Shown: one piece after another, positions 9,553-28,051 of the stretch | Position numbering within the stretch: the first letter of the stretch is position 1 | How the letters are laid out: each line of letters opens with the position of its first letter | NCBI RefSeq assembly: GCF_900109465.1 | Contig: NZ_FOAZ01000004.1 | Location: 186,001 to 250,000, forward strand | DNA from: Streptacidiphilus jiangxiensis | GTDB taxonomy: Bacteria > Actinomycetota > Actinomycetes > Streptomycetales > Streptomycetaceae | Length of the DNA stretch: 64,000 bases | Reading direction: 5' to 3' | Notes under the pieces: model-generated | Database searches by the model: none | Seen by the model: only the letters and a program-made list of their open reading frames with translations | What the model was told of the DNA's origin: nothing | Program-made: the position numbers and the translations under genes

Positions 9553-9654
9553 CCATCTGCTGCTCCCGAGGATCGATCGGATGTCAGAAGACGGCCGGTG
9601 TGCCGTTTGACAGGCTCTTCAGCAGATGGCGATTCGTCAAAGAGGGGGAACGAC
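9553..9654 (+). promoter_or_regulatory. Duplicated upstream element, copy 1 (precursor 1)
   Basis: About 102 nt before the ATG of precursor 1 match 27565-27667 before precursor 2 at roughly 85 percent over the first 88 nt, far better than unrelated non-coding DNA. Shared segments include ATCGATCGGATG, CAGAAGACGGCCGG, a TTGACA/TTGGCA hexamer (9607-9612 here) and GCGATTCGTC. Copy 1 also has a perfect ten-base inverted repeat, CCATCTGCTG (9553-9562) and CAGCAGATGG (9620-9629). The ribosome site AGAGGGGGAA ends 4 nt before the start. It probably carries the promoter and the binding site for the cluster regulator. Confidence 0.7.
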
Positions 9655-9810
9655 ATGGAAATGAGCGACCTGATGGCCGAGGGCCTGACTGTCGACGACC
9701 TGACCATCGAGGAGCTGAACGACGTGGCTGCGGGCGGTTGCGTCAGCTCTGCGTCCTCCGTCAGCACGCCGGTCAGCAGCGTGGGCAGCCTGGCCTCCGC
9801 CTGCCTCTGA
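9655..9810 (+). CDS. RiPP precursor peptide 1
   Basis: 51 aa. The acidic leader (about 27 residues) contains LTVDDLTIEELNDV, of the type bound by leader-recognition domains of azole and thiopeptide enzymes. The last 24 residues are the predicted core, made almost only of Ser, Cys, Thr, Val, Ala and Gly, with STP at core positions 10-12 and Cys at 2 and 23. The leader-core junction reads AAGG before Cys, a double-glycine-type site that suits the C39 peptidase encoded downstream. The 24-residue core aligns without gaps to those of precursors 2 and 3. ATG 9655 has a strong ribosome site. A stem-loop follows before the P450 operon. Confidence 0.88.
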   Translation: MEMSDLMAEGLTVDDLTIEELNDVAAGGCVSSASSVSTPVSSVGSLASACL

Positions 9811-9882
9811 TCTCCGCCGTGCCTGCGCCCCGGGCGGAGTCGTCATGGCGAGCGAGGCCCTGACCGCCCAGCTGAACAGTTC

Positions 9883-9920
9883 GTTGCCGATGGCGTCGGC
9901 CGGCTGACGCCATCGGCAAC
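9883..9920 (+). terminator. Stem-loop between precursor 1 and the biosynthetic operon
   Basis: Fifteen perfectly paired bases (9883-9897 with 9906-9920) around an eight-base loop, 73 nt after the precursor stop and 23 nt before the P450 start. There is no U-tract. In lantibiotic clusters a leaky hairpin here lets the structural gene be transcribed more than the enzyme genes; the same role is inferred. Confidence 0.7.
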
Positions 9921-9943
9921 ACCACGGAGAGAGTTGGCAGTTG

Positions 9944-11206
9944 ATGGACGAGTTGGCAGCATCGGTGCTCCGCTTCATCGCGGACCCGAAATCCCAGCCG
10001 ATCGGCGACAACGAGATGTTCGCGCGGCTCGTGGTCGAGAAGCCGTTGATGCGGGTGGGTGAGGTTTGGGTCGCCTCTCGGCATGACGTGGTCAGCGCCC
10101 TGGCCAGGCACCCGAACTGTGTCCTGCGGATGCCGGACGGGTGGTCCGGGAGCCAGCACGCCGACGACAGGATCGGCGAGTTGCTGGAGGGACTGCTGCC
10201 CATCCAGCCGACCGCCGACCACCGGCGACTGCGACGCCTCGTCTCCGGCGGATTCAGTGCCAAGTCGATCTCCGGCCTGCGGCCGGTGGTTCAGTCCATC
10301 GTGGACGAGTTGTTCGCCGAGCCTCTCGAGCGGGGCGAGTGCGAGTTCATCGGTGAGGTGTGCGGTCCGCTGCCGGTGTACACGACCGTCGCCATGCTCG
10401 GTCTCCCCGAAGCAGACCGTCCGCAGGTCTTCGAGTGGGCCCGTGCCGTCAACGCTCTGGTCCTCGCCGAGGTCACCGGCCGGTTCGGCGGCTGGTCGGG
10501 AGCCGCAGCCCCCAGCGAGGCCGGCACCGCCGGCCTGACCGAGGTGGTCGGCTACGTCGAGGACCTGGTCCGACGGCGACTGGCCGATCCCGGCGAGGAC
10601 CTGATTTCCCGCCTCGCCCGGGAATCCTCGGGCGAGGACGGCAAGCTCTCTCATGCCGAACTGGTGTCCATGGTCCTCACCCTCTTCATGGCCGGCATCG
10701 ACACCGTGGGCAGCGGGCTGGCCAACGTCGTGACGGCGCTTGACCAGAACCCGGAGGCGTGGCGGCGGGTGGTGGTCGATCCGAGCCTGGCCCGCGCCGC
10801 ATACGTGGAGGGCACGCGGCTGCTGCCGGCCCTGCCGATGATGGGACGGATCGTCGACGCGGATGTCGAACTGCACGGAATCGTCATCCCCGCGGGCAGC
10901 ACGGTGCTGCTGATGTACGGGGCTGCCAACCTCGACCCCGCCGCGTTCACCGACCCGACCCGCTTCGACCTGGACCGGACCGAGACCAACCACCTCTCCT
11001 TCGGACACGGACCCCACTACTGCCTCGGCGCGGGCCTCGCGATGCTGCAGGGCGAGATCGTTCTGGAGACGCTGGCCCGGCGGGCCCCGGGGTTCCGCAT
11101 TGTCGACGGGCCCGCCGAGCGCCGGGGCGAGTTGGCCTTCCACAGCAGGGCCAGCATGCGGCTTCGGTTCGCCTCCGGGGAACCGCTCGTGGGTGCTGTG
11201 GCATGA
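9944..11206 (+). CDS. Cytochrome P450 of the RiPP cluster
   Basis: 420-residue soluble bacterial P450. The I-helix oxygen-activation motif is FMAGIDTVGSG (near residue 250), the ExxR element is EGTR (near 289), and the heme-binding loop is FGHGPHYCLG with the proximal Cys near residue 360. ATG 9944 is used; TTG 9941 is also in frame. Its stop overlaps the ATG of the next gene (ATGA, 11203-11206). As the first gene of the operon it most likely hydroxylates or otherwise oxidises the modified peptide. This enzyme class is not part of the goadsporin set as I recall it. The partner ferredoxin is not encoded here. Confidence 0.9.
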   Translation: MDELAASVLRFIADPKSQPIGDNEMFARLVVEKPLMRVGEVWVASRHDVVSALARHPNCVLRMPDGWSGSQHADDRIGELLEGLLPIQPTADHRRLRRLVSGGFSAKSISGLRPVVQSIVDELFAEPLERGECEFIGEVCGPLPVYTTVAMLGLPEADRPQVFEWARAVNALVLAEVTGRFGGWSGAAAPSEAGTAGLTEVVGYVEDLVRRRLADPGEDLISRLARESSGEDGKLSHAELVSMVLTLFMAGIDTVGSGLANVVTALDQNPEAWRRVVVDPSLARAAYVEGTRLLPALPMMGRIVDADVELHGIVIPAGSTVLLMYGAANLDPAAFTDPTRFDLDRTETNHLSFGHGPHYCLGAGLAMLQGEIVLETLARRAPGFRIVDGPAERRGELAFHSRASMRLRFASGEPLVGAVA

Positions 11207-13411
11207 GCGTTCTGGCCGGCCTGCGGGCCGTCGCGCGTAGCCCGGGCAGACCGGGGGACCGAGACCCCGATCGTCGCCCAGGCGGAGGAAGCCGACTGCG
11301 GCCCCGCGTGCCTCGGCATCCTCCTCGGTCATCGTGGAACGCCGGTACCTGCCGCCCAACTGCGGTCGGACTGCGGAGTCTCGCGCGACGGGACGACGGC
11401 AGCGGACCTGATCCGTGCCGCCGGGAAGTACGGCCTCGTCGGCCGGGGCGTGCGGCTGCGCGGCGTCGGAGCGGGAGGACGAGCAGGAGCAGGAGCCGAG
11501 GCTGTACTGGAGGCCCTGCGAGCGCTGGGCCGCCCCTCGATCGTGCTGATCCGCACGAGTCACTTCGTCGTTCTGGAGGCGGTGGCCCCGGACGGGACGG
11601 TGTCCGTCAACGACCCAGGCCGCGGCCGTTACCGACAGTCCGGGGCCGACTTCCTCACCGAGTTCAGTGGCGTCGCGCTGACCTTCACGGGCGGGGCGCC
11701 GGCGCGGGGCGGGCGTGCCCGGCTGCCGTGGGTGAGCATCTGCAGGGCCTGGCTTGCGCCGGCGCGCAGGAGCGTGGCCCTCGCGGCCCTCCTCGGTCTG
11801 CTGGGCGGCACGCTCCTGGCGGCGGAGGCGCTCGTGCTCGGGCGCGTCGCGGCGGGCGTGGCGACCGGGCACCGGGTGGACGGCCCCGCTCTGGTGGCTG
11901 CCCTGGCCATCGCCGCGGCCGCGACGGCCGTCGGCTTCGGTCAGCGGCGACTGCTCACCTCGACGCTCGCCGGGGTGTCCGCCGTACGTGTCCGAGGCCT
12001 GCTGGAGCGGATCCTGACGCTCCCGACCTGGTTCACCCTGCGTCGTCCGGTTTCCGCCCTGCTCAGCCAGGTCCGCTTCGCCGAGACCGCCGCAGTTCTG
12101 CTCGCCCACCGGGTGGTTCCGCTGGTCAGCGGTACGGCCTTCCTGCTGCCGGTGACGGTTGTGCTGTACGTGCTCTCACCCGCTCTGGCACTCACCGCCG
12201 TGATCGGCGTCGCCGCGGCCGGGGTGCTGCGGGCGACCGGGGACCGGCGCTCGGCTGCGCCTCGTCGACTGCTCGTGAACGAGGTCACCCGGCGCAACGC
12301 GACGGCTCATGCCGCACTTTCGCGCATGGCGGCCATGCACGCTGCCGGCTCCGACAGCGACCTGTTCGCGGAACTGACCGGGCTGCAGGGGCGCGACCTG
12401 CACGCCCGGGACCAGGCAGCCGCCCGGGCGCGCCCGTGGCAGGCCGCCGCCGCGGCGACGGAGACGGCCATGGTGGCCGCGGCCTGCGTCCTGGCGGCGG
12501 AGACGGCTGTCGCAGGCTCCGCCGCCATCGGGCACGCGGTTGGCGCCCTCGTCACGCTGGCCCCCTTCGCGGTGACGGCTCGGACTGTCGTCGACACGCT
12601 CCAGGAACTCCCGGAGTTCGTCGGCCGGATCGCCGTCCTGGACGAGGTGGCGGAGGCGGTTCCCGAGCCCCGCTACCAGAGGCACGCCAGGGCGGACCGT
12701 CCGGCTCCCAAGCTGCAGGGTCGGCTCGAGGTGGCCGACCTCGCCTTCGGCTACGCACCCAACCGCCCGCCCCTGCTGGACGGCCTCGACGTCACGCTCG
12801 CACCGGGCGAGCGCATCGTGCTCCTCGGAGCCGCCGGCAGCGGCACGTCGACACTGCTCCGACTGCTGGTCGGGGCTCTGCAGCCGTCACGGGGGCGGAT
12901 CCTGCTCGACGGCACGCCCATCCAGGACCTCCCGCGCGAGGTTCTGCTCGGCTCCGTGGGGTATGTGCCCCAGACCCCGTGCCTGTACCCGGCGAGCGTC
13001 GCGGACAACGTCACGCTGTTCGACGACGCGATCGACGCCGCACAGGTGGTGCGGGCTCTGCGCGACGCCTGCCTGGACGAGGTGGTCGCCCGGCGCGGTG
13101 GCCCGTCGGTTGCCCAGGTCGCCCCGGGCGGCCGGAACTTCGGTGGTGGTGAACGCCAACGCATGGCGTTGGCGCGGGCGTTGGTCAGGGAACCGTCGAT
13201 CCTGCTGCTCGACGAACCTGTCAGCGCGGTGGATCCGTCCCTGGCCGCACGTCTGGACGCCATGCTTCGCCGCCGGGGTGTGACCGTCGTCGTCGCGACG
13301 CAGCGCGCTGAGATGATCGGCCCCGCCGATCGGGTCCTGAGACTTGAGAACCGCCGCCTCACGCCCAGCACCCCCGTTGACGCGGGAGCCGTCAAAGCGG
13401 TGCTCCGGTGA
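11203..13411 (+). CDS. C39 peptidase-ABC exporter subunit (apparent frameshift)
   Basis: NHLM/LanT-type exporter subunit that would cleave the leader and export the core. ATG 11203 overlaps the P450 stop, but its frame (MSVLAGLRAVARSPGRPG) must shift +1 near a run of five G (11253-11257) to reach the conserved protein; the frame-corrected product is about 735 aa. No ATG, GTG or TTG exists in the main frame between the P450 stop and GTG 11450, which would lose the active site. The peptidase domain has Cys in EEADCGPACL, His in TSHFVVLE and Asp in VNDPGRG. The transmembrane part spans about residues 180-440. The ATPase domain is unusual: Walker A reads GAAGSGTST (Lys replaced by Thr), the signature is FGGGERQR, Walker B is SILLLDEP, and the H-loop His is Gln. 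It is probably the degenerate half of a heterodimer with the next gene. Confidence 0.8.
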
Positions 13412-15414
13412 GCGGGCCGGGGCGCCGGCCCACCGCCGACCGGCAGGTCCTCGACCCCTGGGAAGCGGTGTTCCGGGAGGCGTTCGACCGTCTCGACCCG
13501 ACTCCTGTGGACGAGTGGGCAGCGTCGGTGCCACCGACATGCCTGGACCCGGTGAGCGCCGCCGCGCTCGCATGCGGTGCCCGGGCCGTGCGCATCGCGC
13601 CGACCGACCTCACCTCGCCGGTCCTGGCACCGGCCCTGGTCATCGACGCCGTAGGGCGGGTGGCCACTCTGCTGCCGGGTGAGCGCCGTTCGGCGGAGGA
13701 GGCTGCGACCGATCGGGTCGCCTGGCGTCTCCACCGCAGACTGCCGGAGGAGGTCGGCGGGCTGCGGGGCCTGGTCGCGCAGGCGCGGGCCGGACTGGGG
13801 CGGACGGCGCCGCTCGTGGTGCTCGCGGCCGGCCTGCTCGCGGCTGCCGTCGTTGCTCTCCTGCCCGTCCTCGCGGTCGAGCTCGGCGAGCGCCACGGGA
13901 CGCAGGCGTTCCTGGTCGTCGCGCTCGCCGTGCCGTTGCTCGCACTTGTGCTCGGGCTCCGCGAGCGGGCCGCCACGAGTGTGCAGCGGGGCGTCCACGC
14001 CGCGTTGGAGCCGGCGCTGTGGGACCGGGTGCTGGACCCGCAGTCGCGCGCGCTACGGGGCCGCTCGCCGCGCACCTTGCTGGGTGCCGCGGGTGTGGTC
14101 ACCCAACTGCGCAGTCTCGTGGCGGGAGCGCTGCTCGACGGACTCCTGGCGTTCTCCCTGGTCGGCTGCACCCTCGCGCTGCTCGCCGTGGTGGAGGTCC
14201 GGCTGGCGATCGCGGCTCTGGCGGTGCTGGTCTCCGGGATGGGCCTGCTCTGGTTGCGTGCCTCCTCGGTCGGAGTGCCCGTCGATTCGGGCGGCCCGAC
14301 CGAGGAGGCGGGCGCCCTGGTGCAGGCGGCGCTGACCGGTCTCGACGAGATCCACCTGTACGCCCGTGAGGCCGCGGTCCTCGACCGTGCCGCCGACGCG
14401 CTCCCGGCCGCGCGGACCGATGGAGCCGAGGAACAACTGGCGGCCGTTCGAACCGCCTTGTGCATCCTGCTGCCCATCGCGGTTCTCGCGACCGGGTGGT
14501 TCAGCGGTGTCGGCCAGGCTCGGCTGCTCGCGGCCTGCGCGGCGGTCACCCAACTGGCCTTCGCCTTGGGGCGTGTCGACAACCTTGCTCGGCAACTTCT
14601 GATACTCGGCCGGGATCTGGTCGGCGGAACCCTCGCGGTGCTCCGGGCGACGGACCGGCCGGCAGAGGACCGGCTGCCTGCCGGCGTCCTGCGCGGCGAG
14701 ATCGAGGTTGCACGGGCGACGTTGACGTACGACGGCGCCGACCGGCCCGCGCTCGCTCAGGTCACCCTGCGCGTCGAACCGGGAGAGTTCGTGGCCTTCG
14801 TGGGCCCGTCGGGCGCGGGAAAGTCGTCCCTGCTCCGCCTGGTTGCCGGGCTCGAGGATCCGGAGCACGGCGAGGTCCGTCTCGACGGCACGCCGCTGTC
14901 GCGCCTGATCCCGGCCACGGTGCGGACACAGACCGGGTTCGTGCCGCAGGACGCCGAGGTCCCGAGAGGCACCGTGCGCTCCGTCGTCCTGGGGACGGAC
15001 TTGCCCGGACTCGACCAACTGGCGTGGGAAGCGCTGGGGGACGCCGGTCTCGCCGACCAGCTCCGGGCGCTTCCGATGGGACTTGCCACGGGCGTCTCCG
15101 GCGGGACCAGCGGCTTCTCCGCCGGTCAGCTCCAGCGGATGCTGCTGGCCCGGGCATTCGCCCGCCGGCCGCGACTCCTGCTGCTGGACGAGATCGATGC
15201 CGTGGCCGGGGAGCGGCTCTGCCGTCACCTGCGGGGCCTGCGAATGACCAGGATCGTCGTCACTCACAGTGAGCTCCTGGCGCGGGCGGCCGACCGGGTG
15301 GTCGTGCTGGACGGCGGGGCCGTGGCGGAGACAGGGCCCTACGACGAGCTGATGGCCGGCCGAGGCGCACTGTTCCGCCTGTTCCATGCGATTTCCGAGG
15401 TTGATGACTCGTGA
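13408..15414 (+). CDS. ABC exporter subunit, NHLM type (no peptidase)
   Basis: 668-residue membrane-spanning ABC half-transporter with an N-terminal soluble region of about 130 residues in place of a peptidase. The ATPase domain is intact at Walker A (GPSGAGKSS, near residue 465), Q-loop, signature (FSAGQLQRM), Walker B (RLLLLDEID) and H-loop (VVTHSEL). It starts at GTG 13408, overlapping the stop of the C39 subunit in a GTGA. The pairing of one peptidase-bearing and one peptidase-free subunit is the pattern of NHLM-type bacteriocin exporters. The likely role is export of the mature RiPP; it would supply the working ATPase site. Confidence 0.85.
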   Translation: MSGPGRRPTADRQVLDPWEAVFREAFDRLDPTPVDEWAASVPPTCLDPVSAAALACGARAVRIAPTDLTSPVLAPALVIDAVGRVATLLPGERRSAEEAATDRVAWRLHRRLPEEVGGLRGLVAQARAGLGRTAPLVVLAAGLLAAAVVALLPVLAVELGERHGTQAFLVVALAVPLLALVLGLRERAATSVQRGVHAALEPALWDRVLDPQSRALRGRSPRTLLGAAGVVTQLRSLVAGALLDGLLAFSLVGCTLALLAVVEVRLAIAALAVLVSGMGLLWLRASSVGVPVDSGGPTEEAGALVQAALTGLDEIHLYAREAAVLDRAADALPAARTDGAEEQLAAVRTALCILLPIAVLATGWFSGVGQARLLAACAAVTQLAFALGRVDNLARQLLILGRDLVGGTLAVLRATDRPAEDRLPAGVLRGEIEVARATLTYDGADRPALAQVTLRVEPGEFVAFVGPSGAGKSSLLRLVAGLEDPEHGEVRLDGTPLSRLIPATVRTQTGFVPQDAEVPRGTVRSVVLGTDLPGLDQLAWEALGDAGLADQLRALPMGLATGVSGGTSGFSAGQLQRMLLARAFARRPRLLLLDEIDAVAGERLCRHLRGLRMTRIVVTHSELLARAADRVVVLDGGAVAETGPYDELMAGRGALFRLFHAISEVDDS

Positions 15415-15428
15415 GGAGAGCTCTGAGG

Positions 15429-17711
15429 ATGACTGTTCGATTCAAGAGGTTCATGCGGGCCGACGTGGTCGCCGGCGACGGCGTCTACCTGACGTCCGAG
15501 CGATCCGGCCAGATCCGGTTGCAGGGCGCGCTCGTCGAGAGCCTGGCCCCATGGCTGGACGGTAAGCACGACCGGGGCGAGATCCTCTCCGCTCTCGCCG
15601 ACCGGTTCTCCGTCGAGCGCGTGAACGCCGTGCTGGACAAGCTGGTTTCGGTGGGGCACGTGATCGAGGGGGAGCTGGCGGAGGACGAGCGGGCGGCCGG
15701 CTTCTGGGAGATGCACGGCAGGAACGGCGATGCCGCCCTGACGTCGGTGCGCGACAGCAGGGTGCAGTTCGTCCGGTTCGGGGACGTCTCCGAGGAGGGG
15801 ATCGCCGCTGCCGCGGCCGCTGCCGGGCTCAGCCTGGGTGGGACGGACCCCTCCCTGACGGTGGTCCTGGTCGACGACTACCTCCACCCGGAGCTGCAGG
15901 CGTTCAACGAGGAGTCCCTGCGTGCCGGGAGGCCATGGCTGCTCGCCAAGCCGATCGGTGGTGTGGTCTGGGTGGGGCCGGTGTTCGAGCCGGGCCGGAC
16001 GGCCTGCTGGTCCTGCCTGGCCGTGCGCCTGAGCTCCAACCAGATGGTCATGCACTACCTGCAGCAGCGCAACGGACTGGCCTCGCCGCCGGTGACCTCG
16101 CTCGCGGACCTGTCGGCGACTCGCCGGATGGGCGTCGAGTTCGCCGCCCTGCACGCGGCCAAGTGGCTCGCGGGCGGTCTGGCCGCGGAGCTGCCGACGT
16201 CGGGGCCGGATGCGGGCACCGGGTACCGACGCACCGAGGTCGTCACCTTCGACCTGGTGGGGCTGCAGAGCCAGAAGCATGTGCTGACCCGTCGCCCGCA
16301 GTGCCGTGCCTGCGGCGACCCGGGCCTGCAGAGCCGCTTGCAGGAGACGCCCGTGCGGCTGACCAGCCGCCCCAAGCTGGAGGTGGTGGACGGCGGCCAC
16401 CGGTCGAAGTCGCCCGAGAAGCTCCTGGCCGAGTACGAGCCGCTGATCAGCCCGATCACCGGTCCGGTGAAGCAACTGATCAAGACGCCGATGGAGATGG
16501 AAGGCCTGCACACCTACTACGCAGGTCAGAACTTCGCCGTGCCGATGGGGCATGTCTCCGACCTGCGAGCAGGGCTGCGCAGCGCCGCGTCCGGCAAGGG
16601 GATGAGCGATGTCCAGGCCCGCGCCTCGGCGGTCGGTGAGGCGATCGAGCGGTACAGCGGCCTGTTCCGCGGCGACGAGGCCCGGATCACCGCGTCCTAT
16701 CGCGAGTTGGGGCCGGAGCGGGCGATCGCTCCCAACGAACTGCACCAGTACAGCGACGCCCAGTTCGCCACGCGCGACGAGTGGAACGCCCGAGGGTCGC
16801 ACTTCCAGCGGGTCTGCGACCCGTTCGATCCGGAGCAGCGGATCGACTGGACCCCGGTGTGGTCGCTGAGCCGACAGCAGACCCGGTATCTGCCGACCGC
16901 CAGCCTGTTCTTCGGCTACCCGCTCGAGCGAGGCAACCGGTACGGCGGCGCCGACTCCAACGGCAACGCGGCCGGCACCTCGTTGGAGGACGCCGTGGTC
17001 CAGGGCTTCATGGAGTTGGTGGAGCGCGACAGCGTGGCGATCTGGTGGTACAACATGGTGCGCCGGCCCGGTATCGACCTGGCCGGCTTCCAGGATCCGT
17101 ACTTCGAGACCTGGCAGCAGCGTTACCGCGCGGCGGGGCGTGAGACGTGGGCCCTGGACCTCACCACCGATCTCGGCATTCCGACGGTGGCAACGGTCTC
17201 GCGCCGCATCGACAAGCCGGTCGAGGACATCCTGATCGCCTTCGGCGCGCATTTCGACGTGAAGATCGCCATCTCCCGCGCGATGACGGAGATGAACCAG
17301 TTCCTGCCCGCGGTGATGCATGCGACCGCCGAGGCCGAGAACTACACGTTCCCCGATCCGGACCAGCACAACTGGTGGCGGACCGCCACCCTGGCCAACC
17401 AGCCGTACCTGAGGCCTCTCGACGGGCGACTGCGGGCGGCGTCCGACTTCACCGCTCCCGGCACCACCGACCTCGTCGAGGACGTGCGACTCGCCCAGCG
17501 GATCGTGGAGGGGGCGGGCATGGAGATGCTGGTGCTGGACCAGACCCGCCCCGACATCGGTCTTCCCGTGGTGAAGGTGCTGGTCCCCGGGATGCGGCAC
17601 TTCTGGACGCGGTACGCCCCGGGGCGCCTGTACGACGTCCCGGTGGCCATGGGCTGGCTCGACCGGCCGATGTCCGAGGCGGATCTGAACCCTGTCGCGA
17701 TGTTCCTGTGA
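15429..17711 (+). CDS. Fused leader-binding/YcaO azoline cyclodehydratase
   Basis: 760 aa. The N-terminal ~95 residues resemble a winged-helix leader-binding domain, followed by an E1/ThiF-like part with two CxxC pairs for zinc (CWSC near 193, CRAC near 294). The C-terminal half is a YcaO ATPase with SAVGEAIERYSG near 404 and a GTSLEDAVVQGFMELVERDS helix. The enzyme makes thiazolines and (methyl)oxazolines from Cys, Ser and Thr in the precursor core. This fused arrangement is that of goadsporin-type and other linear azole peptide pathways. The C-terminus (NPVAMFL) lacks the PxPxP tail of some homologues. ATG 15429 with AGGAGAG upstream is preferred over GTG 15411. Confidence 0.9.
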   Translation: MTVRFKRFMRADVVAGDGVYLTSERSGQIRLQGALVESLAPWLDGKHDRGEILSALADRFSVERVNAVLDKLVSVGHVIEGELAEDERAAGFWEMHGRNGDAALTSVRDSRVQFVRFGDVSEEGIAAAAAAAGLSLGGTDPSLTVVLVDDYLHPELQAFNEESLRAGRPWLLAKPIGGVVWVGPVFEPGRTACWSCLAVRLSSNQMVMHYLQQRNGLASPPVTSLADLSATRRMGVEFAALHAAKWLAGGLAAELPTSGPDAGTGYRRTEVVTFDLVGLQSQKHVLTRRPQCRACGDPGLQSRLQETPVRLTSRPKLEVVDGGHRSKSPEKLLAEYEPLISPITGPVKQLIKTPMEMEGLHTYYAGQNFAVPMGHVSDLRAGLRSAASGKGMSDVQARASAVGEAIERYSGLFRGDEARITASYRELGPERAIAPNELHQYSDAQFATRDEWNARGSHFQRVCDPFDPEQRIDWTPVWSLSRQQTRYLPTASLFFGYPLERGNRYGGADSNGNAAGTSLEDAVVQGFMELVERDSVAIWWYNMVRRPGIDLAGFQDPYFETWQQRYRAAGRETWALDLTTDLGIPTVATVSRRIDKPVEDILIAFGAHFDVKIAISRAMTEMNQFLPAVMHATAEAENYTFPDPDQHNWWRTATLANQPYLRPLDGRLRAASDFTAPGTTDLVEDVRLAQRIVEGAGMEMLVLDQTRPDIGLPVVKVLVPGMRHFWTRYAPGRLYDVPVAMGWLDRPMSEADLNPVAMFL

Positions 17712-17734
17712 GGACCGTTCTTGTGAGGACCGAC

Positions 17735-19300
17735 ATGCAGAACAGCTCCACCCTTGCCACCCTTGCTCCGCCCGCTGCGCCGGCGGAGATCCGCGAGTGT
17801 CCGGTCGGCTTCCGTTCCGACGTGGTGATCGACGTCCGCGACGGGGTGCTCCGGCTGCTCAGCCCCATCGGCGGCTACGCGCTGAACGGTGTCGCCCCAG
17901 CGGTCGTCGAGGCGCTGCGCGACATCGTGGCATCCGGCACCGCGCTGGCCGACGGCGTCGAGAAGCTCTCGGACACCGAGGCGGGCCAGTTGTACACGAT
18001 CGCGGAACGGGCGCCCAAGCTGGCCGAGTTCGGCATCCTTCTCGGGGGCCGACTGCTGGTGAAACTGGAGGCGACCGCCCGGGACGCGCACTACGAGAAG
18101 GCGGCAGTACCGCTCGACGTCCGCGTCAAGCTGTCGAAGTTCGTGCTGCTCCGCTCGCACGCCGGGGCCCTGGTGCTGGAGTCGCCGCTCGCGCGCCACC
18201 GGGTCACGCTCGTGGCCCCCGCAGCCGGTGCGGCGATCACCGCCCTGGGAGGGGGCTGCACCGGAGCGGATCTGCTGGGAGAGCTGCCGGAGGCGGCGGT
18301 CAGCAGCCTACTGGGGCACCTGGTCGGGGCGGGTTTCGTGGAGACCGAGGCCGTCGACGGCGGGGTGAACGGCTTTCCGTCCGACACCGATCCCGTGCTG
18401 CGCCAGTGGGACTTCCACGATCTGGTGACTCACTCCCGGGCCCGCACCGGCCGGTTCGACCAGCCCTTCGGGGGCATTTTCCCCTTCCTCGGCGAGATCG
18501 AACCGCAGCCGGCGCTGAAGCCGGTTCCGACGGGTCCGTCGATCGTGTTGGACCGGCCCGAACTCGAGGACATCCTGGCGGTCGACCCCTCGCTCACCAC
18601 GGTTCTCGAGGCCCGCACCTCGGTCCGGGACTACGGCGAGACCCCGCTGTCCGTGGCGCAGATCGGGGAGTTCCTCTACCGGACAGCGCGGGTGCGGGCC
18701 GTCTACGGCCCGTCGGAGGCCACCCCCTACGAGGCCTCCACCAGGCCGTATCCCTGTGGTGGCGCCGCCTACGAGCTGGAGCTGTACCTGACCGTGCGCC
18801 GGTGCGACGGCATCGAGCCGGGATGCTACTACTACGACCCCGTCGGGCACCGTCTCGTGCTCGTGAACGAGGACCCGAGCGATCGTCAGGCGATGTTGCA
18901 CGCCGCCTCGGTCGCCACCGCGATGCAGGCCAACGCGGACATCCTGATCACCATGACCGCACGGCATCAGCGCCTGTCGTGGAAGTACCGGTCCATGGCG
19001 TACTCGGTCAGCCTCAAGCACGCCGGTGTGCTCTACCAGACCATGTACCTGGTGGCCACCGCGATGGGACTGGCGCCCTGCGGCCTCGGCAGCGGTGACG
19101 CCGACCTGGCTGCGAGGGTGCTGGGGCTGGACTACCTGACCGAGTCCAGCGTCGGCGACTTCATCCTCGGTAGTCGTGCCGTCCCGCAGGAGGGAGCGAC
19201 CGCCAGGCGGCTGCCGGAGAACTGGCGGCCGGTCAACGACCCCCAGTGGGGTGTGCAGTCGCAGTCGACGCTCTTCCGGCGGTTCCGAGGACCGGCGTGA
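17735..19300 (+). CDS. SagB-type FMN azoline dehydrogenase
   Basis: 521 aa. The C-terminal half is a nitroreductase-fold flavoprotein: ARTSVRDYGETPLS near residue 292, the substrate/FMN region YPCGGAAYELELY, and GLAPCGLGSGDAD late in the domain. It oxidises azolines made by the YcaO enzyme to aromatic azoles. The N-terminal ~270 residues form a winged-helix region often fused to SagB in this class. ATG 17735 has GAGGA five bases upstream; GTG 17708, which overlaps the previous stop, is an alternative. Its stop overlaps the next start (GTGA). Confidence 0.9.
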   Translation: MQNSSTLATLAPPAAPAEIRECPVGFRSDVVIDVRDGVLRLLSPIGGYALNGVAPAVVEALRDIVASGTALADGVEKLSDTEAGQLYTIAERAPKLAEFGILLGGRLLVKLEATARDAHYEKAAVPLDVRVKLSKFVLLRSHAGALVLESPLARHRVTLVAPAAGAAITALGGGCTGADLLGELPEAAVSSLLGHLVGAGFVETEAVDGGVNGFPSDTDPVLRQWDFHDLVTHSRARTGRFDQPFGGIFPFLGEIEPQPALKPVPTGPSIVLDRPELEDILAVDPSLTTVLEARTSVRDYGETPLSVAQIGEFLYRTARVRAVYGPSEATPYEASTRPYPCGGAAYELELYLTVRRCDGIEPGCYYYDPVGHRLVLVNEDPSDRQAMLHAASVATAMQANADILITMTARHQRLSWKYRSMAYSVSLKHAGVLYQTMYLVATAMGLAPCGLGSGDADLAARVLGLDYLTESSVGDFILGSRAVPQEGATARRLPENWRPVNDPQWGVQSQSTLFRRFRGPA

Positions 19301-21828: not shown

Positions 21829-22723
21829 GCGCCTCGCGACGACGGCGGTCCCGGCGGACGAGTGGCTCTACTACCGGATTCACGTGGATGCCGCTGACGC
21901 CGGGGACCGCCTGCTACGTGAGGTCGTCTCCCCGGTGATCGGACAGCTGAGCGCCGGGCTGCCCGAGGACTCGCGATTCCGATGGTTCTTCCTCCGCTTT
22001 GCCGACCCCTCGGGCCTGCACATCCGGCTGCGGCTGAACGCGTCACGTCATTCGCTCGGTGAGGTCGAGAGGACGCTGGACGCGGCTCTTTCCGCCGCGG
22101 CCCGCCAGGAGACACCGATCTGCGATTCGTACAGGAAATACCTCTATGCGCCCGAGGGGTGGAAATTCGGCGCAGGAGCCGGAATCCGCCACGCGGAGGA
22201 ACTGTTCCAGGCCGGCAGTGAAATGGCGCTGGAGGTTCTCGCGGAGCCGGGGCCGGCCTCGCGGGTCGACTACGGTGCGGCTCATCTGCTCATGATGGTC
22301 GGGGCGTTGCCGCCGGCCCAGCAGGCGAGCTTTCTGCATCAGTACGCCTGGTACTGGTCGGGCGGACCGACCAGGCGACCGGGCATGGCCCCCAGGGGCG
22401 GACCGTTGCACCGTGACCGCTCAGCCGGAGAGTTGGAGCGTCTCCTGGCCGGGGCGCGCCGCGCGCTGGACGCGCCGGCGGGAGGCTTGGCGCTGCTCCG
22501 GTACGGCCATCGGGTCCGCAAGGCGATGCGGGCGAGCGGCAGGAGTCCGATCCCCAGGTCCGACTACTTCCTCCTGTTCCACCACCTCCACCTCACCAAC
22601 AATCGCATCGGCGTTTTCCCGGCTGCGGAGTCCGCGCTGGCGAGAATGCTCTGGCTGGCCATGCGCCGAGGAATTGTCCAGCCGTCAACGCCCGACATGA
22701 CACATGTCATGCCGAACGCATGA
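21821..22723 (+). CDS. LanB elimination-domain (SpaB_C-like) protein
   Basis: 300-residue protein with the start typical of this family (EWLYYRIHVDA) and the motif FFLRFADPSGLHIRLRL. It resembles the C-terminal elimination domain of LanB, which removes glutamate to leave dehydroalanine or dehydrobutyrine. Thiopeptide clusters carry two such proteins, one for elimination and one for pyridine-forming cycloaddition; only one is present, and beside a glutamylation protein it is most likely the elimination partner. It is the last gene of the overlapping chain. A 16-bp palindrome lies in its final codons. Confidence 0.85.
   Translation: MGERLATTAVPADEWLYYRIHVDAADAGDRLLREVVSPVIGQLSAGLPEDSRFRWFFLRFADPSGLHIRLRLNASRHSLGEVERTLDAALSAAARQETPICDSYRKYLYAPEGWKFGAGAGIRHAEELFQAGSEMALEVLAEPGPASRVDYGAAHLLMMVGALPPAQQASFLHQYAWYWSGGPTRRPGMAPRGGPLHRDRSAGELERLLAGARRALDAPAGGLALLRYGHRVRKAMRASGRSPIPRSDYFLLFHHLHLTNNRIGVFPAAESALARMLWLAMRRGIVQPSTPDMTHVMPNA
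22696..22711. promoter_or_regulatory. Palindrome at the end of the operon
   Basis: CATGACACATGTCATG is a perfect 16-base palindrome inside the last codons of the elimination gene, about 80 nt before the next ABC gene. A second short hairpin, ACGCAT with ATGCGT, follows around 22717-22732. It could be an operator for the ABC/two-component unit or part of a weak terminator. Confidence 0.35.
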
Positions 22724-22791
22724 ACAATGCGTACGGAGCTGGTGACCTCTACAACTGGTGGCCGCGCGACGAAATGACATAGCATCATTCC

Positions 22792-23709
22792 ATGCTCAAT
22801 GAGTCAGTCATCGAGGTCCGCGATCTCCGCAAGAAATACGGTGATTTTCCGGCGGTCGACGGAATTTCGTTCGAGGTACGACGCGGCCAGATCTTCGCGC
22901 TGCTGGGTACGAACGGCGCGGGCAAGACGACCACGCTCGACGTGCTGGGAGGCTTCCTGCGACCCACGAGCGGCTCGGTCCGGGTACTCGGCCTGGACCC
23001 GGCCCGGGACCGGGCCAAGCTCGGCTCCCGCCTGGGGATCATGCTGCAGGAGGCCGGCTTCTTCGAGAGTCTCACCGTCGCCGAGACGATCGACGCCTGG
23101 CGTCGGTTCACCCCAGGGGCGCGGCCCCGCGCGGAGGTGCTGGAGCTGGTCGGGCTGACCCACAGGACGTCAACCGGGGTCGGTCGTCTGTCCGGTGGCG
23201 AGCGGCGGCGCCTCGACCTCGCGCTGAGCCTGCTGGGCGGACCCGAAGTGCTGTTCCTCGACGAGCCGACCACGGGGCTGGACCCGGAAGCACGACGCAA
23301 CACCTGGAACCTCCTGCGGGAGTTGGCGCAGCGCGGGATGACCGTCCTGCTCACCACCCACTACATGGAGGAAGCCGAGTTCCTCGCGGACCGCCTCGCG
23401 ATCATGGATCGGGGCAGCATCGTCCGGGAGGGTTCGCTCGCCGAGATCCGGGCGAGAACCGCGTCGACCATCACCTTCAGTCTCCCGGCACCGCTGACCC
23501 TGGCAGACCTGCCCCGGCCGGAGAACACGCAGGTGGAAGAAGAGGCGGGCCAGGTCAGCGTCACCACCCGGGAGCCACAGCGGACACTCGGGCTCCTGCT
23601 CGGTTGGGCCGACACGCGGAACCTGGACCTCACCGACATCCATGTGGACGCCGGCTCGCTGGAGGACGTCTTCCTGGACATCGCGACCGGCGAAAGGACG
23701 ACTCGATGA
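22792..23709 (+). CDS. ABC transporter ATPase (drug/immunity type)
   Basis: 305-residue stand-alone ATPase of the DrrA/CcmA type. Walker A is GTNGAGKTT, the signature LSGGERRRLDLA, Walker B VLFLDEPTTGLDPE, and the H-loop TTHYMEE. It pairs with the permease whose ATG overlaps its stop. As no resistance gene for a known target is visible in the cluster, this pair is the best candidate for self-protection or extra export. ATG 22792 has no clear ribosome site, and AT-rich TAGCAT lies 6 nt upstream, so a leaderless transcript is possible. Confidence 0.9.
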   Translation: MLNESVIEVRDLRKKYGDFPAVDGISFEVRRGQIFALLGTNGAGKTTTLDVLGGFLRPTSGSVRVLGLDPARDRAKLGSRLGIMLQEAGFFESLTVAETIDAWRRFTPGARPRAEVLELVGLTHRTSTGVGRLSGGERRRLDLALSLLGGPEVLFLDEPTTGLDPEARRNTWNLLRELAQRGMTVLLTTHYMEEAEFLADRLAIMDRGSIVREGSLAEIRARTASTITFSLPAPLTLADLPRPENTQVEEEAGQVSVTTREPQRTLGLLLGWADTRNLDLTDIHVDAGSLEDVFLDIATGERTTR

Positions 23710-24464
23710 CCTGGCTCACCTACGCCGCCGCCCAGTTCCGGCTGTCCCAGCAGGTGTACTGGAAGCGCATCGGCATCGCGCTGACGGGCACGGCACTGCC
23801 TCTGGGGCTCGGAGCGTTCCTCCCGCTGCAGGCCCGACACACCGTCATCTCGCGTATGCCGGGCAGCCTCTACGTGCTCACCGGGCTCATGGCCTTCGCC
23901 CTGTTCTTCACCGTCTACAACCTGGTGAACGCGGTCACCTCGCGGCGGGACGCGTTGATCTACAAGCGGCTCCGGGCTTCGGCCCTGCCCGACAGCTCGA
24001 TCTTCGCGGGCGAGGCCCTGGCGGCCGCGATCCCGAGCTGTGTGGTCGCCAGTCTGCTGATGGTCTACGGCGCGGTGTTCCTGGGCTCGGGGGCACCACA
24101 TGACATCGCTCTGCTGGTCCTGGGCATCCTGCTGGGTTCAGCCATGTTCACCATGCTCGCCATCGGTGTCTCGGGCGTCCTGCCGGGCGCGGACACCGCC
24201 ATGTGGATCGTCACGCCGGCCATGGTGGTGTCCATGTTCTGCTCCGGGGTCTACTCCCCGGTCTCCCAACTACCCGCCTTCCTGCGGCTGGTCGCGCCCT
24301 ACCTCCCGATGACACCGGTCGTGCGCGTTGTGCGTACCGCCTACCTGGGGCAGGAGTCCTTGCCGACGGATCTCGGTGATCTCGGTGTTATGTTGGCATG
24401 GACCGTCATCGGCTTCGCCCTGGCCCGGAGACTGTTCCGCTGGGATCCCAGGCGGACGAGTTGA
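23706..24464 (+). CDS. ABC-2 type permease
   Basis: 252-residue protein with six hydrophobic segments and the ABC-2 family region VSMFCSGVYSPVSQLPAFLRLVAPYLPMTP before the last helix. The start ATG overlaps the stop of the ATPase gene (ATGA), which fixes the pair. Likely function is export of the cluster product or protection of the producer. It is followed 53 nt later by the sensor kinase, a common order for kinase-controlled ABC exporters. Confidence 0.88.
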   Translation: MTWLTYAAAQFRLSQQVYWKRIGIALTGTALPLGLGAFLPLQARHTVISRMPGSLYVLTGLMAFALFFTVYNLVNAVTSRRDALIYKRLRASALPDSSIFAGEALAAAIPSCVVASLLMVYGAVFLGSGAPHDIALLVLGILLGSAMFTMLAIGVSGVLPGADTAMWIVTPAMVVSMFCSGVYSPVSQLPAFLRLVAPYLPMTPVVRVVRTAYLGQESLPTDLGDLGVMLAWTVIGFALARRLFRWDPRRTS

Positions 24465-24517
24465 CGACACGACGGAGCCCGCGGTGACCCCGTCGGCGGC
24501 GTGGAGGTGGGGGAACG

Positions 24518-25699
24518 ATGGGGACACGGTCGCGCCTGGCCGCTGCCCGCTCGGTGACCGTCCTGCTGATGTCCCTCTGCGTCCTCTACGGCGTGGAGCC
24601 GCTGTTCTCCTCCGGGTTCAGCCGGTTGAACGCTGCCCAGTCCGGTGTCGCACTGGGGGGCATGGCGGCCTTCTTCGCAGCTCTGCTCCTCGCTGTTCGG
24701 CACGGCGGCCAGGCCGGTCCGAGATGGGGCAACAAGCCGTGGTCCCTGGTCTGCCTCGGCGTCATCGCTGTCGGCCTCTACCTGCAGTTCGGTCCGGCGC
24801 TGGTCGCACTGCCGGCCCTCTTCGGCGGAACCGCCGGGTTCGCCCTGAGCCGCTACCGGGCGGTGCCGGTCGTGCTCGGCACCCTGGCGAGCATCTATCT
24901 CGCGATCTCGCACCAGGGGCTCCCCGAGGCGCAGGTCGTGGATCTGATGGGACGTGCGGTGATCGAGATGTCGGTGATCTACGCCGTGGGGAAGATCGCC
25001 TTGCTGAGCCGCGAGATCGAACGCAATCGGGTGGAGTTGGCACGGCTGGCGGTGGTCGAGGAGCGTCTCCGGTTCTCTCGGGACCTGCACGACGTGCTCG
25101 GCCACAGCCTCTCGGTGATCTCCATCAAGGGCGAGGTCGCGGCGAGGCTGACCGACCGGGACCCGTGCACCGCGACCGAGGAGATGAACGCCGTGGTCGA
25201 GATCGCCCGGCGGTCTGCAGGGGAGATCCGCAGTCTCGTGCGCGGCTACCGCGGGCAGTCCCTGGACGCGGAGCTCGAAGGAGCGGTCAGTGTGCTGGAG
25301 GCGGCGGGAATCCGGAGCTCGGCGGATGCCGTACCGCGGGCGCTGCCGGCCCAGGTTCAGGAAGTCCTGAGCTGGGTGATTCGGGAGGGCGTGACCAACG
25401 TGCTCAGACACAGCCGGGCCACCCGGTGCGAGATCACCATGCGCGCCGTCGGCGGAGACCTCGTCCTGGACCTCGTCAACAACGGGATCCGAGCGGATCG
25501 GCAGGCCCAGGGGAGGGGGGCGGGCAGCGGTCTTGTCGGCCTTGCCGAACGACTGGCCGGTATCGACGGGAGGCTGTCCGGTGAGCGGATCTCCGAGGAC
25601 GAGTTCCGGCTGAGGGCCACGGCACCGCTCGTACGCGGCGGGACCCACGACCCGACCGGGGAGCCCTGGGGCCAGGCGGAGAAGGAGGGAGAATCGTGA
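24518..25699 (+). CDS. Sensor histidine kinase (NarL-partner type)
   Basis: 393 aa. About four to five hydrophobic helices fill the first 150 residues, followed by a HisKA_3 dimerisation motif, FSRDLHDVLGHSLSVI, with the phospho-accepting His near residue 190, and an ATPase domain with VIREGVTNVLRHSRA and GSGLVGLAERL. The stop overlaps the response-regulator start in a GTGA. The membrane sensor has no obvious extracellular domain, so it probably senses within the membrane, possibly the product or the cell-envelope state. ATG 24518 follows GGTGGGGGAA. Confidence 0.9.
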   Translation: MGTRSRLAAARSVTVLLMSLCVLYGVEPLFSSGFSRLNAAQSGVALGGMAAFFAALLLAVRHGGQAGPRWGNKPWSLVCLGVIAVGLYLQFGPALVALPALFGGTAGFALSRYRAVPVVLGTLASIYLAISHQGLPEAQVVDLMGRAVIEMSVIYAVGKIALLSREIERNRVELARLAVVEERLRFSRDLHDVLGHSLSVISIKGEVAARLTDRDPCTATEEMNAVVEIARRSAGEIRSLVRGYRGQSLDAELEGAVSVLEAAGIRSSADAVPRALPAQVQEVLSWVIREGVTNVLRHSRATRCEITMRAVGGDLVLDLVNNGIRADRQAQGRGAGSGLVGLAERLAGIDGRLSGERISEDEFRLRATAPLVRGGTHDPTGEPWGQAEKEGES

Positions 25700-26301
25700 T
25701 CCGGGTTCTGATCGCGGAGGACCAGGAGCTTGTTCGCACCGCACTTGCGAGACTCGTCTCACTGGAGGACGACATCACCGTGGTGGCCGAGGCCGCCGAC
25801 GGTGAGGAGACGATGGTGCTTGCGACACAGGTCGCTTGCGATGTGGCGGTGCTCGACATCGACATGCCGGGCATGGACGGTCTGATCACCGCGGAGAAGC
25901 TCCGCGTCGCCCACCCGGAGATCTCGGTGCTCCTGCTGACCAGCCATGGGCGCCCTGGCTATCTGAGACGCGGGGTCCAGGCGGGGGCCCGGGGATTCGT
26001 CACCAAGAACATCTCCGGCAGCCGGCTCGCCGACGTCATCCGAGAGGTCCACGCAGGTGGGCGGTACCTTGATCCCGAGATTGCCGCCGACGCCATGTTC
26101 ATCGGCGAATGCCCGCTGGGACCAAGGGAGTTGGAGATCCTTCGGCTTGCCGAGGACGGTCGGCCGCTCGCGAGCATCGCGCACGACCTGGCGCTGAGCG
26201 AGGGGACCGTCCGCAACTACATGTCGGCGGCCGTCACCAAGCTAGGGGTCGGCAACAGGGCCGGCGCCGTCCGATACGCCCAGAGCATGGGCTGGCTGTA
26301 A
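25696..26301 (+). CDS. NarL/LuxR-type response regulator
   Basis: 201 aa. The receiver domain has the acidic pair EDQ near residue 8, the phospho-acceptor Asp54 in AVLDIDMPGMDG and the conserved Lys in FVTKN. The C-terminal LuxR helix-turn-helix reads LGPRELEILRLAEDGRPLASIAHDLALSEGTVRNYMSAAVTKLG. It partners the kinase that overlaps it, and candidate targets are its own operon and the duplicated elements before the precursors. Confidence 0.92.
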   Translation: MIRVLIAEDQELVRTALARLVSLEDDITVVAEAADGEETMVLATQVACDVAVLDIDMPGMDGLITAEKLRVAHPEISVLLLTSHGRPGYLRRGVQAGARGFVTKNISGSRLADVIREVHAGGRYLDPEIAADAMFIGECPLGPRELEILRLAEDGRPLASIAHDLALSEGTVRNYMSAAVTKLGVGNRAGAVRYAQSMGWL

Positions 26302-26506: not shown

Positions 26507-26514
26507 TACACAAG

Positions 26515-26564
26515 AGTCCCGGTGGCGTGGAAGTCGCATCGACTTCCACGCCACCGGGACTTTT
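26515..26564. terminator. Strong bidirectional terminator
   Basis: Twenty-two perfectly paired bases (26515-26536 with 26540-26561) followed by TTTT. It lies between the convergent 59-aa gene and the orphan LuxR regulator and can serve both strands. It is the clearest intrinsic terminator in the window. Confidence 0.92.
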
Positions 26565-26578
26565 GCTCGGGAGTGCCG

Positions 26579-27226
26579 TTACCTCATTTCCATGGCGAGC
26601 GAGGAAAGCCCTAATTCATAGGCGGCGGCGACCGCCTGCGCCCGGCTGCGTACCGAGAGTTTCTGCAGAATGTGATGCACGTGCGATCTGACCGTGGATC
26701 CGGAGATGAAAAGGCGATCGGCCACCTCGGAATTTGAAAGGCCTCTCGCCAGCAGACCGAGGACATCAGTCTCCCGCTCGGTCAGTTGCGTGATCGAGGC
26801 ACCGACCCGGGAAGCGGACGAGTTCTGCATGACGGAATCGATGTGCCGGGAGACCGTGAGGGGTATCAGGACGGCATCTCCGGCTGCGACCACCCGAATC
26901 GTCTGGATGAGCTCCCCGGGCGTCACGCTCGGCGTGAGCACGGCCCGCGCGTTGAGTGTCAGCACGTCAGAGGGGCTGAGCTCTACTCCGATGTCCGCGA
27001 GGGTCACCACCTTGGCAGCCGTCGCCATCTCTCGGTGGGCCGCGATGTCGATCTCCGACAGCGACACGACGGCCACATCCGGACGTGTGTCCCTCATTTT
27101 CTGGACCGTCTCGCCGGCGCTCGAGGACTGGCCGATCACCTCGAAATCCTCCTGCGCCGCCAGCAGTGCGCCCAGTCCCGCACCGGAGAGCGGGTCGTCG
27201 GAACAGACGGAGATGGTTATCCTCAA
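26579..27226 (-). CDS. Orphan LuxR regulator with degenerate receiver
   Basis: 215 aa. The C-terminal LuxR helix-turn-helix is clear: LTERETDVLGLLARGLSNSEVADRLFISGSTVRSHVHHILQKL. The N-terminal domain aligns with NarL receivers (SDDPLSGAGL near residue 9), but the phospho-acceptor Asp is Ser55 (VAVVSLSEID) and the conserved Lys is replaced by Thr. It is therefore probably not controlled by ordinary phosphorylation and may bind a ligand or act constitutively, like other atypical receivers of antibiotic clusters. The start is TTG 27226 with GGGGGAAA upstream. It is a likely pathway-specific regulator of the RiPP genes. Confidence 0.85.
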   Translation of the reverse strand: MRITISVCSDDPLSGAGLGALLAAQEDFEVIGQSSSAGETVQKMRDTRPDVAVVSLSEIDIAAHREMATAAKVVTLADIGVELSPSDVLTLNARAVLTPSVTPGELIQTIRVVAAGDAVLIPLTVSRHIDSVMQNSSASRVGASITQLTERETDVLGLLARGLSNSEVADRLFISGSTVRSHVHHILQKLSVRSRAQAVAAAYELGLSSLAMEMR

Positions 27227-27564: not shown

Positions 27565-27667
27565 CCATCCGCTGCTCCCGAAGATCGATCGGATGCCAGA
27601 AGACGGCCGGCGTGCAGTTTGGCAAGCTTTTCGGCAGAGAGCGATTCGTCTGGGAGGAGGGAACGAA
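27565..27667 (+). promoter_or_regulatory. Duplicated upstream element, copy 2 (precursor 2)
   Basis: Matches 9553-9654 upstream of precursor 1 with one indel. The TTGACA-like hexamer is TTGGCA here (27619-27624), and the ten-base inverted repeat of copy 1 is lost. GCGATTCGTC and the ATCGATCGGATG block are kept. A GGGAGGAGGGAA ribosome site follows. Conservation in non-coding sequence points to a shared promoter and regulator site. Confidence 0.7.
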
Positions 27668-27811
27668 ATGGAAACGACTGAGCTCATGGTCGAGGACCTG
27701 ACCATCGAGGAGCTGAACGACGTGACCGCGGCTGACAGCTGCGCCGGCTGCGCGTCCAGCGTCAGCACGCCGGTCAGCAGCGCGGCCTGCGTCGGCACCG
27801 CCAGCTTCTGA
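27668..27811 (+). CDS. RiPP precursor peptide 2
   Basis: 47 aa. The leader (about 23 residues) keeps the VEDLTIEELNDV motif of precursor 1. The 24-residue core shares ASSVSTPVSS with core 1 at identical positions, while positions 5, 18, 21 and 23 change among Ser, Thr and Cys, and the last residue is Phe instead of Leu. The junction reads TAAD before Ser, which is not a double glycine, so cleavage may need a different site or be less efficient. ATG 27668 has a strong ribosome site. It is followed 34 nt later by precursor 3. Confidence 0.88.
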   Translation: METTELMVEDLTIEELNDVTAADSCAGCASSVSTPVSSAACVGTASF

Positions 27812-27845
27812 TCCACACCGGGCACATGCCAAGGGAGGGGACGTC

Positions 27846-28010
27846 ATGTCCAACGAGAACCAGATCACCGGCGACGCGCAGGTCCTGACGGTTGAGGACC
27901 TGGGCATCGAGGAGCTGGACGAGGTCGCGGGCGCGGGCTCGTTCAGCTGTGTCGGCACGGCCAGCACCCCGGCGAGCCTCGGCAGCGCCGCCTGCTGGAG
28001 CAGCCTCTAG
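27846..28010 (+). CDS. RiPP precursor peptide 3 (divergent)
   Basis: 54 aa. The leader (about 30 residues) has LTVEDLGIEELDEV followed by AGAG. The 24-residue core keeps STP at core positions 10-12 and Ser14 but otherwise differs, with Cys at 5 and 20 and Trp at 21. AAGGGAGGGG precedes ATG 27846. It is probably cotranscribed with precursor 2 and ends just before a strong terminator. The cluster enzymes must accept both core types if all three are processed. Confidence 0.85.
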   Translation: MSNENQITGDAQVLTVEDLGIEELDEVAGAGSFSCVGTASTPASLGSAACWSSL

Positions 28011-28020
28011 GCTGACGACT

Positions 28021-28051
28021 GAAGGGGCCCCTCTGTCAGAGGGGCCCCTTC
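28021..28051 (+). terminator. Perfect palindromic terminator after the precursors
   Basis: A 31-base palindrome with fifteen-base arms around a single T, ten bases after the stop of precursor 3. A real hairpin would open the innermost pairs to form a loop. It marks the likely right end of the RiPP cluster. Confidence 0.85.

Follow-up and report, generated by a model that had tools for sequence, protein, structure and literature searches.

A probable goadsporin-like pathway, with a cytochrome P450, for an azole- and dehydroamino-acid-containing peptide in Streptacidiphilus jiangxiensis

The locus

The DNA analysed here is a 64-kb stretch, called the window, from Streptacidiphilus jiangxiensis. 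It lies on a 532-kb contig (C41) of a 9.5-Mb draft genome in 93 contigs, and coordinates are window positions unless another record is named. Between 9655 and 28010 the window contains a gene cluster for a ribosomally synthesised and post-translationally modified peptide (RiPP). It consists of three short precursor genes together with genes for a cytochrome P450, a C39 peptidase-ABC exporter, a second ABC protein, a YcaO cyclodehydratase, a SagB dehydrogenase and a split LanB dehydratase.

Enzyme names were assigned by profile matches from Pfam and NCBIfam (Table 1). These name the same YcaO, SagB, split LanB, P450 and C39 exporter that a preliminary description of this DNA had listed.

The genes from precursor 1 through a LuxR response regulator form one chain on the plus strand, running from 9655 to 26301. 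Six neighbouring gene pairs overlap by 4 bases (ATGA or GTGA), and the LanB and SpaB_C genes overlap by 8 bases. Downstream of 26301 there is a small open reading frame (ORF), followed by a 20-bp inverted repeat. A minus-strand LuxR gene comes next, and then precursors 2 and 3.

The best explanation is a goadsporin-like pathway for a RiPP that carries both azoles and dehydroamino acids, with a P450 that appears to have been inherited along with the cluster. The probability of this reading is put at roughly 0.8. What the sequence itself shows is the enzyme set with its families, the elimination motifs, the synteny and the common descent of the P450.

Relatives and distribution

A YcaO alignment was used to scan the genome contigs of 84,980 species. 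It gave 120 relatives, and 80 of these were retained for comparison. Gene order was then compared by tblastn, using 11 window proteins as queries and accepting E up to 1e-6.

Two of these 80 relatives have the complete set of 11 genes, for enzymes, transport and regulation, in the order found in the window. The first, L073, is a metagenome-assembled genome labelled Mycobacterium sp. RYN_182, with identities of 75% for YcaO, 52% for LanB and 61% for the P450. The second, L074, is from Streptomyces sp. ISL-87, where the corresponding numbers are 58%, 40% and 38%. Pfam confirms the P450 and C39 domains in both (the C39 domain of L074 at 6e-24). Given that the same 11 genes are found in the same order in two other records, the gene set of the window goes beyond chance.

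Other relatives carry parts of the set. L116 matches the LanB and SpaB_C profiles weakly. L077-L082 and L125 match the exporter, YcaO, SagB, the DrrAB-type pump, the histidine kinase and the response regulator, with no LanB or P450 match.

At E up to 1e-20, the LanB was found in one of 14 genomes sampled from the genus, which is the genome under study. At E up to 1e-30 it was found in 8 of 394 genomes from the class, again including this one. Only one of the other seven (G317) exceeds 33% identity, and that match is on the same contig as L073. Since LanB and full-set matches are this few, the cluster looks rare and scattered in the genomes sampled.

Precursors and leader

A purine-rich sequence precedes the start codon of all three window precursors. 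In a six-frame search of the 64 kb the leader motif occurs three times, once per precursor and nowhere else. A precursor search of the organism's own genome gave E < 1 at these three sites only. The preliminary description had proposed three flanking precursors, and both searches bear it out.

Directly upstream of the P450 there are two precursors in L073 and five in L074. The resulting ten precursors have a common acidic leader, [ED][DE][LIV]xIE[ED]L. Every core contains exactly one Pro, preceded by Thr in five cases and by Cys in the other five. Phe, Trp or Tyr is present in nine of the ten cores, with precursor 1 lacking any aromatic residue. The window cores are 24-25 residues long.

C39 peptidases are described as recognising hydrophobic residues at -4, -7 and -12, and as cleaving after GG, GA or GS (as given in PMC10885120). 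If the conserved Leu of the leader is placed at -7, all ten precursors have L, I or V at position -12. Position -4 is V, L or M in six of them and A or T in four. Positions -2/-1 are GG or GA in six; the other four have AG, AA, AA and GT. Because this pattern fits the C39 preference, cleavage 7 residues past the conserved Leu is a fair prediction, although a weaker one for the four precursors without GG or GA. With this predicted cut, the three window cores would weigh 2155.01, 2263.94 and 2246.00 Da before modification.

Azole-forming enzymes

Searched with the YcaO family profile, LynD, TruD and MusD match over the full length at E 2e-231 or lower, and the window protein is therefore taken as a fused cyclodehydratase. 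SagB matches the solved CyaGox at 2e-68.

In a tree of 30 YcaO proteins, those of the window, L073, L074 and two of Nocardia panacis form a clade (100/99). The YcaOs of L076 and L143 adjoin it. Within 22 kb, the Nocardia panacis loci have no LanB or P450 match (tblastn, E up to 1e-6). This suggests that LanB and P450 were gained or lost within the YcaO clade.

One of these loci (L075) has a short ORF at 9736-9906, ending in CGCRCGCRCG, directly before its same-clade YcaO without LanB match. It is a possible precursor of a different peptide. The genome under study also has a second YcaO locus, 43-49% identical (G000:C57:411394-413250; L002, L064), beside a histidine kinase match. It has no LanB or SpaB_C match in 20 kb.

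The split LanB

A profile of four LanBs was compared with the PDB. It matches 9jhq, 'Goadsporin biosynthetic protein' (the solved GodF), over nearly its whole length at 1.1e-177. The same profile matches TbtB (6ec7) at 4.7e-39. Together with the YcaO and SagB profiles, this agrees with the earlier claim that the azole and dehydration enzymes are of the goadsporin sort.

Peptide aminoacyl-tRNA ligases are short LanBs that lack an elimination domain. That likeness is the reason to consider that the window LanB might add amino acids to a peptide instead of being one half of a dehydratase. The term 'split LanB' also occurs in a paper on pyrroloiminoquinones. The gene for a partner elimination protein overlaps the LanB gene however, and the closest solved protein is GodF, which makes a ligase hardly credible.

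The partner is a SpaB_C protein. Such proteins can be glutamate-elimination proteins, or they can be the pyridine synthases of thiopeptides. In a thiopeptide pathway, the single SpaB_C protein of this cluster would perform the [4+2] pyridine formation, and elimination would be done otherwise. The profiles PF14028 and TIGR03891 also cover thiopeptide proteins.

The best PDB sequence matches of the SpaB_C profile are elimination domains of class I dehydratases: MibB at 5.7e-14, MadB (9g04) at 4.2e-9 and NisB at 1.8e-6. The thiostrepton protein TsrE/TsrL (7cww) follows at 0.0017. The seven PDB matches at E up to 10 include no TbtD or PbtD chain.

Two motifs were compared across 41 proteins, Yx[PS]Exx[KR] and HxxxNR. 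Both are present in all four cluster SpaB_C proteins. They are also in all eight thiopeptide elimination proteins (in one of these, Ser replaces Pro), in all four lactazole-type ones, in 7 of 7 members of an M50-type group and in 3 of 3 full LanBs. Neither motif is in any of the 15 pyridine synthases compared. An RxR motif discriminates less well, being present in both lactazole-type pyridine synthases. The elimination residues of NisB presumably lie at these motif positions.

As for the references, 13 of the 15 pyridine synthases were identified by NF045556 matches above cut-off, and the two lactazole-type ones by matches below it. The elimination references were assigned by cluster context, being adjacent to pyridine synthases.

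The curated pyridine synthase profile NF045556 matches none of the four cluster SpaB_C proteins, and a search of the whole own genome with it gave zero matches. The preliminary description had noted that no second SpaB_C-type protein for pyridine formation was present, and the search likewise found no pyridine synthase. On these profile results, and with the elimination motifs kept, a thiopeptide assignment was rejected.

Two further results do not by themselves discriminate between elimination and pyridine formation. In the SpaB_C tree the four cluster proteins group with the M50 group (93/90, below the starred level), apart from the pyridine synthases, but forcing them together with the pyridine synthases is not rejected (approximately unbiased, or AU, test, p 0.11). 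And the predicted structure, with a predicted local distance difference test score (pLDDT) of 75.8, fits elimination domains and pyridine synthases equally well.

The assignment as a probable elimination protein is thus based on motifs and curated profiles, and not on tree or fold. A clear grouping with pyridine synthases, which would have counted heavily against the preliminary description, was looked for in sequence matches, motifs, profiles and tree and was not observed, though the tree does not reject it. Taken together, pyridine formation by this protein is very improbable.

The own genome has a second PF14028 match of 43 bits, in an 806-aa frame at G000:C67:38332-38946 (L192). Within the same family, L153-L155, L161-L163 and L166 represent a recurring cluster type with YcaO, a LanB matched by the cluster LanB profile, and SpaB_C. 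The three of these that were scanned (L153, L155 and L161) also have nitroreductases and a protein that matches M50 peptidase and PqqD-like profiles (below cut-offs in L161).

The P450

The window P450 has the motifs FGHGPHYCLG, ExxR and GIDT. The haem-loop Cys, the ExxR and the I-helix Asp-Thr, which are taken to be the functional positions of a P450, are present in all three cluster P450s.

A P450 tree was made of 27 rows: the best matches from a sample of 246 genomes plus the P450s in the loci of the relatives. The P450s of the window, L073 and L074 form one clade (100/100), in which L074 is outside window plus L073. SpaB_C and YcaO branch in the same way. In bit scores to the window P450, L073 reaches 536 and L074 266, with the next best at 184. 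Because of this clade and its matching branching order, and as far as three members can tell, the P450 seems to belong to the cluster by descent. The P450 clade and the synteny in two other records also make plausible the new sub-branch that the preliminary description had suggested.

The P450 could cross-link two residues, which would make the product a macrocyclic azole and dehydroalanine (Dha) peptide instead of a linear one. The P450 does descend with the cluster, every core has its one Pro, and nine of ten have an aromatic residue. Examples of RiPP P450s that carry out cross-linking or decarboxylation are given in PMC10676384. On the other hand, no aromatic residue is common to all ten cores. 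Solved P450s match at family level, and the best of these act, by name, on small molecules (biotin pathway, 6-deoxyerythronolide B), which says little about a peptide substrate. A macrocycle is rather improbable. The 'linear' of the preliminary description is still a prediction, as the P450 could also cross-link.

The C39 exporter

The reading frame of the C39 exporter is open from 11207. It runs on for 733 codons and includes a whole PF03412 domain. From the P450 stop (11204-11206) to 11450 this frame has no ATG, GTG or TTG start. There is an ATG at 11203 which overlaps the P450 stop like in the other gene pairs, but it is in another frame than C39. By eye, the first dozen codons from this ATG resemble the start of the L074 protein. 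In L073 and L074, the C39 gene has an in-frame start codon at the P450 stop.

This mismatch counts against a working pathway. Either there is a true frameshift, or the assembly contains an error, or the gene has an unusual start. In the case of a true frameshift, the cluster could be decaying, or the peptide might not be exported. Set against this are the long open frame with its complete domain, a codon-position GC content similar to that of neighbouring genes, and the other cluster genes being open. By eye, the Cys, His and Asp that are assumed to be the expected C39 peptidase residues are also present. A draft of 93 contigs may well hold a base error. Decay is unlikely, if less so than the other alternatives discussed here.

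In L073 the C39-ABC and the second ABC gene are fused into one ORF of 1338 aa (5966-9979).

Comparison with known systems

Peptides with both azoles and dehydroamino acids are not new. According to PMC10676384, both modifications occur mainly in two classes, the thiopeptides and the goadsporin/spongiicolazolicin group, to which it adds the dehydrazoles. Two goadsporin clusters had been counted by 2015 (PMC4603692). The same source describes coryneazolisins as having lanthipeptide-like dehydratases and no [4+2] protein.

Goadsporin, from the god cluster of Streptomyces sp. TP-A0584, is the closest known system. It has the FMN dehydrogenase, the split LanB pair, a short leader and the peptidase-ABC exporter GodB (PMC5303826), and also a fused cyclodehydratase (PMC4603692). 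The preliminary description was wrong in stating that goadsporin lacks a C39 exporter. It does appear right on the P450, since the words P450 and cytochrome do not appear in PMC5303826. Further differences are three precursors here versus one structural gene there, and cores of 24-25 residues versus 19. Unlike god, the window cluster lacks both a small GNAT gene (GodH) and an additional SRP54-type gene. This comparison with god covers the genes other than DrrAB, histidine kinase, response regulator and LuxR.

The absence of an acetyltransferase and an SRP54 gene, as earlier described, was upheld. No GNAT (GodH-like) match was found among the cluster proteins scanned with Pfam. SRP54 domains in the own genome amount to two strong matches (C55) and three weak ones (C84, C76 and C63), with none on the window contig. 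The immunity gene of goadsporin is said by the preliminary description to be of the SRP54 type; the word 'immunity' is not in PMC5303826. A GNAT domain does occur at 28853-31879, in a CoA-ligase-like protein of 1008 aa that is not in the gene chain.

The spongiicolazolicins (Streptomyces sp. CWH03) are linear azole peptides of 28-29 residues (PMC8838263), grouped with goadsporin as azole and dehydroamino-acid RiPPs (PMC10676384). Dehydrazoles, like carnazolamide, also have azoles and Dha in one peptide, and one of their clusters, from Streptomyces sp. SN-593, has a P450-like gene (PMC10676384). Dehydrazoles use a LanMbC for dehydration however, where the window has a split LanB, and carnazolamide has a long NHLP-type leader where the leaders here are short. 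A dehydrazole was rejected because no DUF4135 LanMbC matched among the cluster proteins scanned with Pfam. A class I lanthipeptide was rejected as well, as no LanC-type cyclase matched among these proteins. Thiopeptides, including lactazole, share YcaO, dehydrogenase and split LanB with the window, and differ in their second SpaB_C-type protein, the pyridine synthase, which has no match here.

Among the relatives, L076 (Streptomyces sp. WM6378) has only four of the 11 genes: YcaO (52%), SagB (47%), LanB (35%) and SpaB_C (35%). It also has a precursor with the same leader motif. Within 22 kb it has no tblastn match to the P450, C39 exporter, DrrAB, histidine kinase or response regulator, and in the same register its core has 12 residues and no Pro.

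Searches of the open literature turned up no title or abstract start about a split-LanB/YcaO cluster with a P450; MIBiG and most subscription papers are outside that search. The absence of such a report is no proof of novelty.

Neighbouring genes

The DrrAB-type pump, the histidine kinase, the response regulator, the minus-strand LuxR gene and the small ORF are additions to the gene list of the preliminary description. The LuxR-type regulator at 26579-27226 is 47% identical over 211 aa to one in the same place in L054. It has no receiver domain match at E up to 0.01. The small charged ORF has its counterpart in L073 at 20986-21141, and no match in L074 (tblastn over the loci compared).

Table 1 Features of the cluster, in window positions.
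Feature	Position	Strand	Basis
Precursor peptide 1, 51 aa	9655..9810	+	leader motif LTIEELNDV, S/C/T-rich tail, sequence like a ribosome-binding site (RBS)
Cytochrome P450, 420 aa	9944..11206	+	PF00067 6e-24
C39 peptidase-ABC exporter	11203..13411	+	PF03412 5.4e-21, ABC_tran 7e-28, read from 11210
Second ABC permease/ATPase, NHLM ABC2-like	13408..15414	+	TIGR03797 8e-80, under curated cut-off
Fused leader-binding/YcaO cyclodehydratase, 766 aa	15411..17711	+	PF02624 4e-103; TIGR03882 and TIGR03604 above cut-off
SagB-type azoline dehydrogenase, 530 aa	17708..19300	+	PF22767, PF00881 (ThcOx/nitroreductase); TIGR03605 6e-51, above cut-off
LanB glutamylation protein, GodF-like, 843 aa	19297..21828	+	PF04738 (LanB N-terminal part) 6e-13; PDB 9jhq profile match
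SpaB_C protein, probable glutamate elimination, 300 aa	21821..22723	+	PF14028 2e-31; TIGR03891; elimination motifs
DrrA-like ABC ATPase, putative immunity	22792..23709	+	TIGR01188 2e-74, under curated cut-off
ABC-2 permease, putative immunity	23706..24464	+	PF12698, PF01061
Sensor histidine kinase	24518..25699	+	PF07730 9e-17
LuxR response regulator	25696..26301	+	PF00072, PF00196
Small charged ORF, 59 aa	26327..26506	+	39% identical ORF in same place in L073, tblastn E 0.005
20-bp inverted repeat, two-way terminator-like	26516..26560	not assigned	
LuxR-type regulator, 215 aa, TTG start	26579..27226	-	PF00196 1e-19
Precursor peptide 2, 47 aa	27668..27811	+	leader motif, RBS-like sequence, genome precursor search
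Precursor peptide 3, 54 aa	27846..28010	+	leader motif, RBS-like sequence, genome precursor search

Proposed pathway and meaning

The chemistry of the product, its linearity and its activity are predicted from the gene content. The fused leader-binding/YcaO protein would bind the acidic xDLxIEEL leader and cyclise part of the Cys, Ser and Thr of the core, after which SagB would oxidise the rings to azoles. The GodF-like LanB would glutamylate the remaining Ser and Thr from Glu-tRNA, and the SpaB_C protein would eliminate the glutamate, leaving Dha or dehydrobutyrine (Dhb). The P450 would oxidise one site; as a guess, this might be the invariant core Pro or its neighbour. The C39-ABC pair would then cleave the leader 7 residues past the conserved Leu and export the peptide. 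DrrAB may serve to protect the producer. The histidine kinase and response regulator, and also the LuxR protein, probably regulate.

Few azole and dehydroamino-acid peptides without the thiopeptide ring appear in the literature surveyed: goadsporin, spongiicolazolicins, dehydrazoles and nostatin A. The cluster points to a new branch of the known, goadsporin-like group. The conserved P450 adds an oxidative step to a split-LanB setting. In the literature surveyed no such step turned up for these peptides, apart from one LanMbC cluster with a P450 gene.

A more tentative idea is that the three P450-bearing clusters make up a separate class of these peptides. In such a class the P450 might oxidise or cross-link the core around the single Pro, giving a conformation and target unlike those of goadsporin, with several cores per cluster matured by one enzyme set. 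This is possible, though doubtful for now.

With ten natural cores, one shared leader and one fixed Pro, these clusters would provide a ready set for studying the choice that a single set of enzymes makes between azole and Dha at Ser and Thr.

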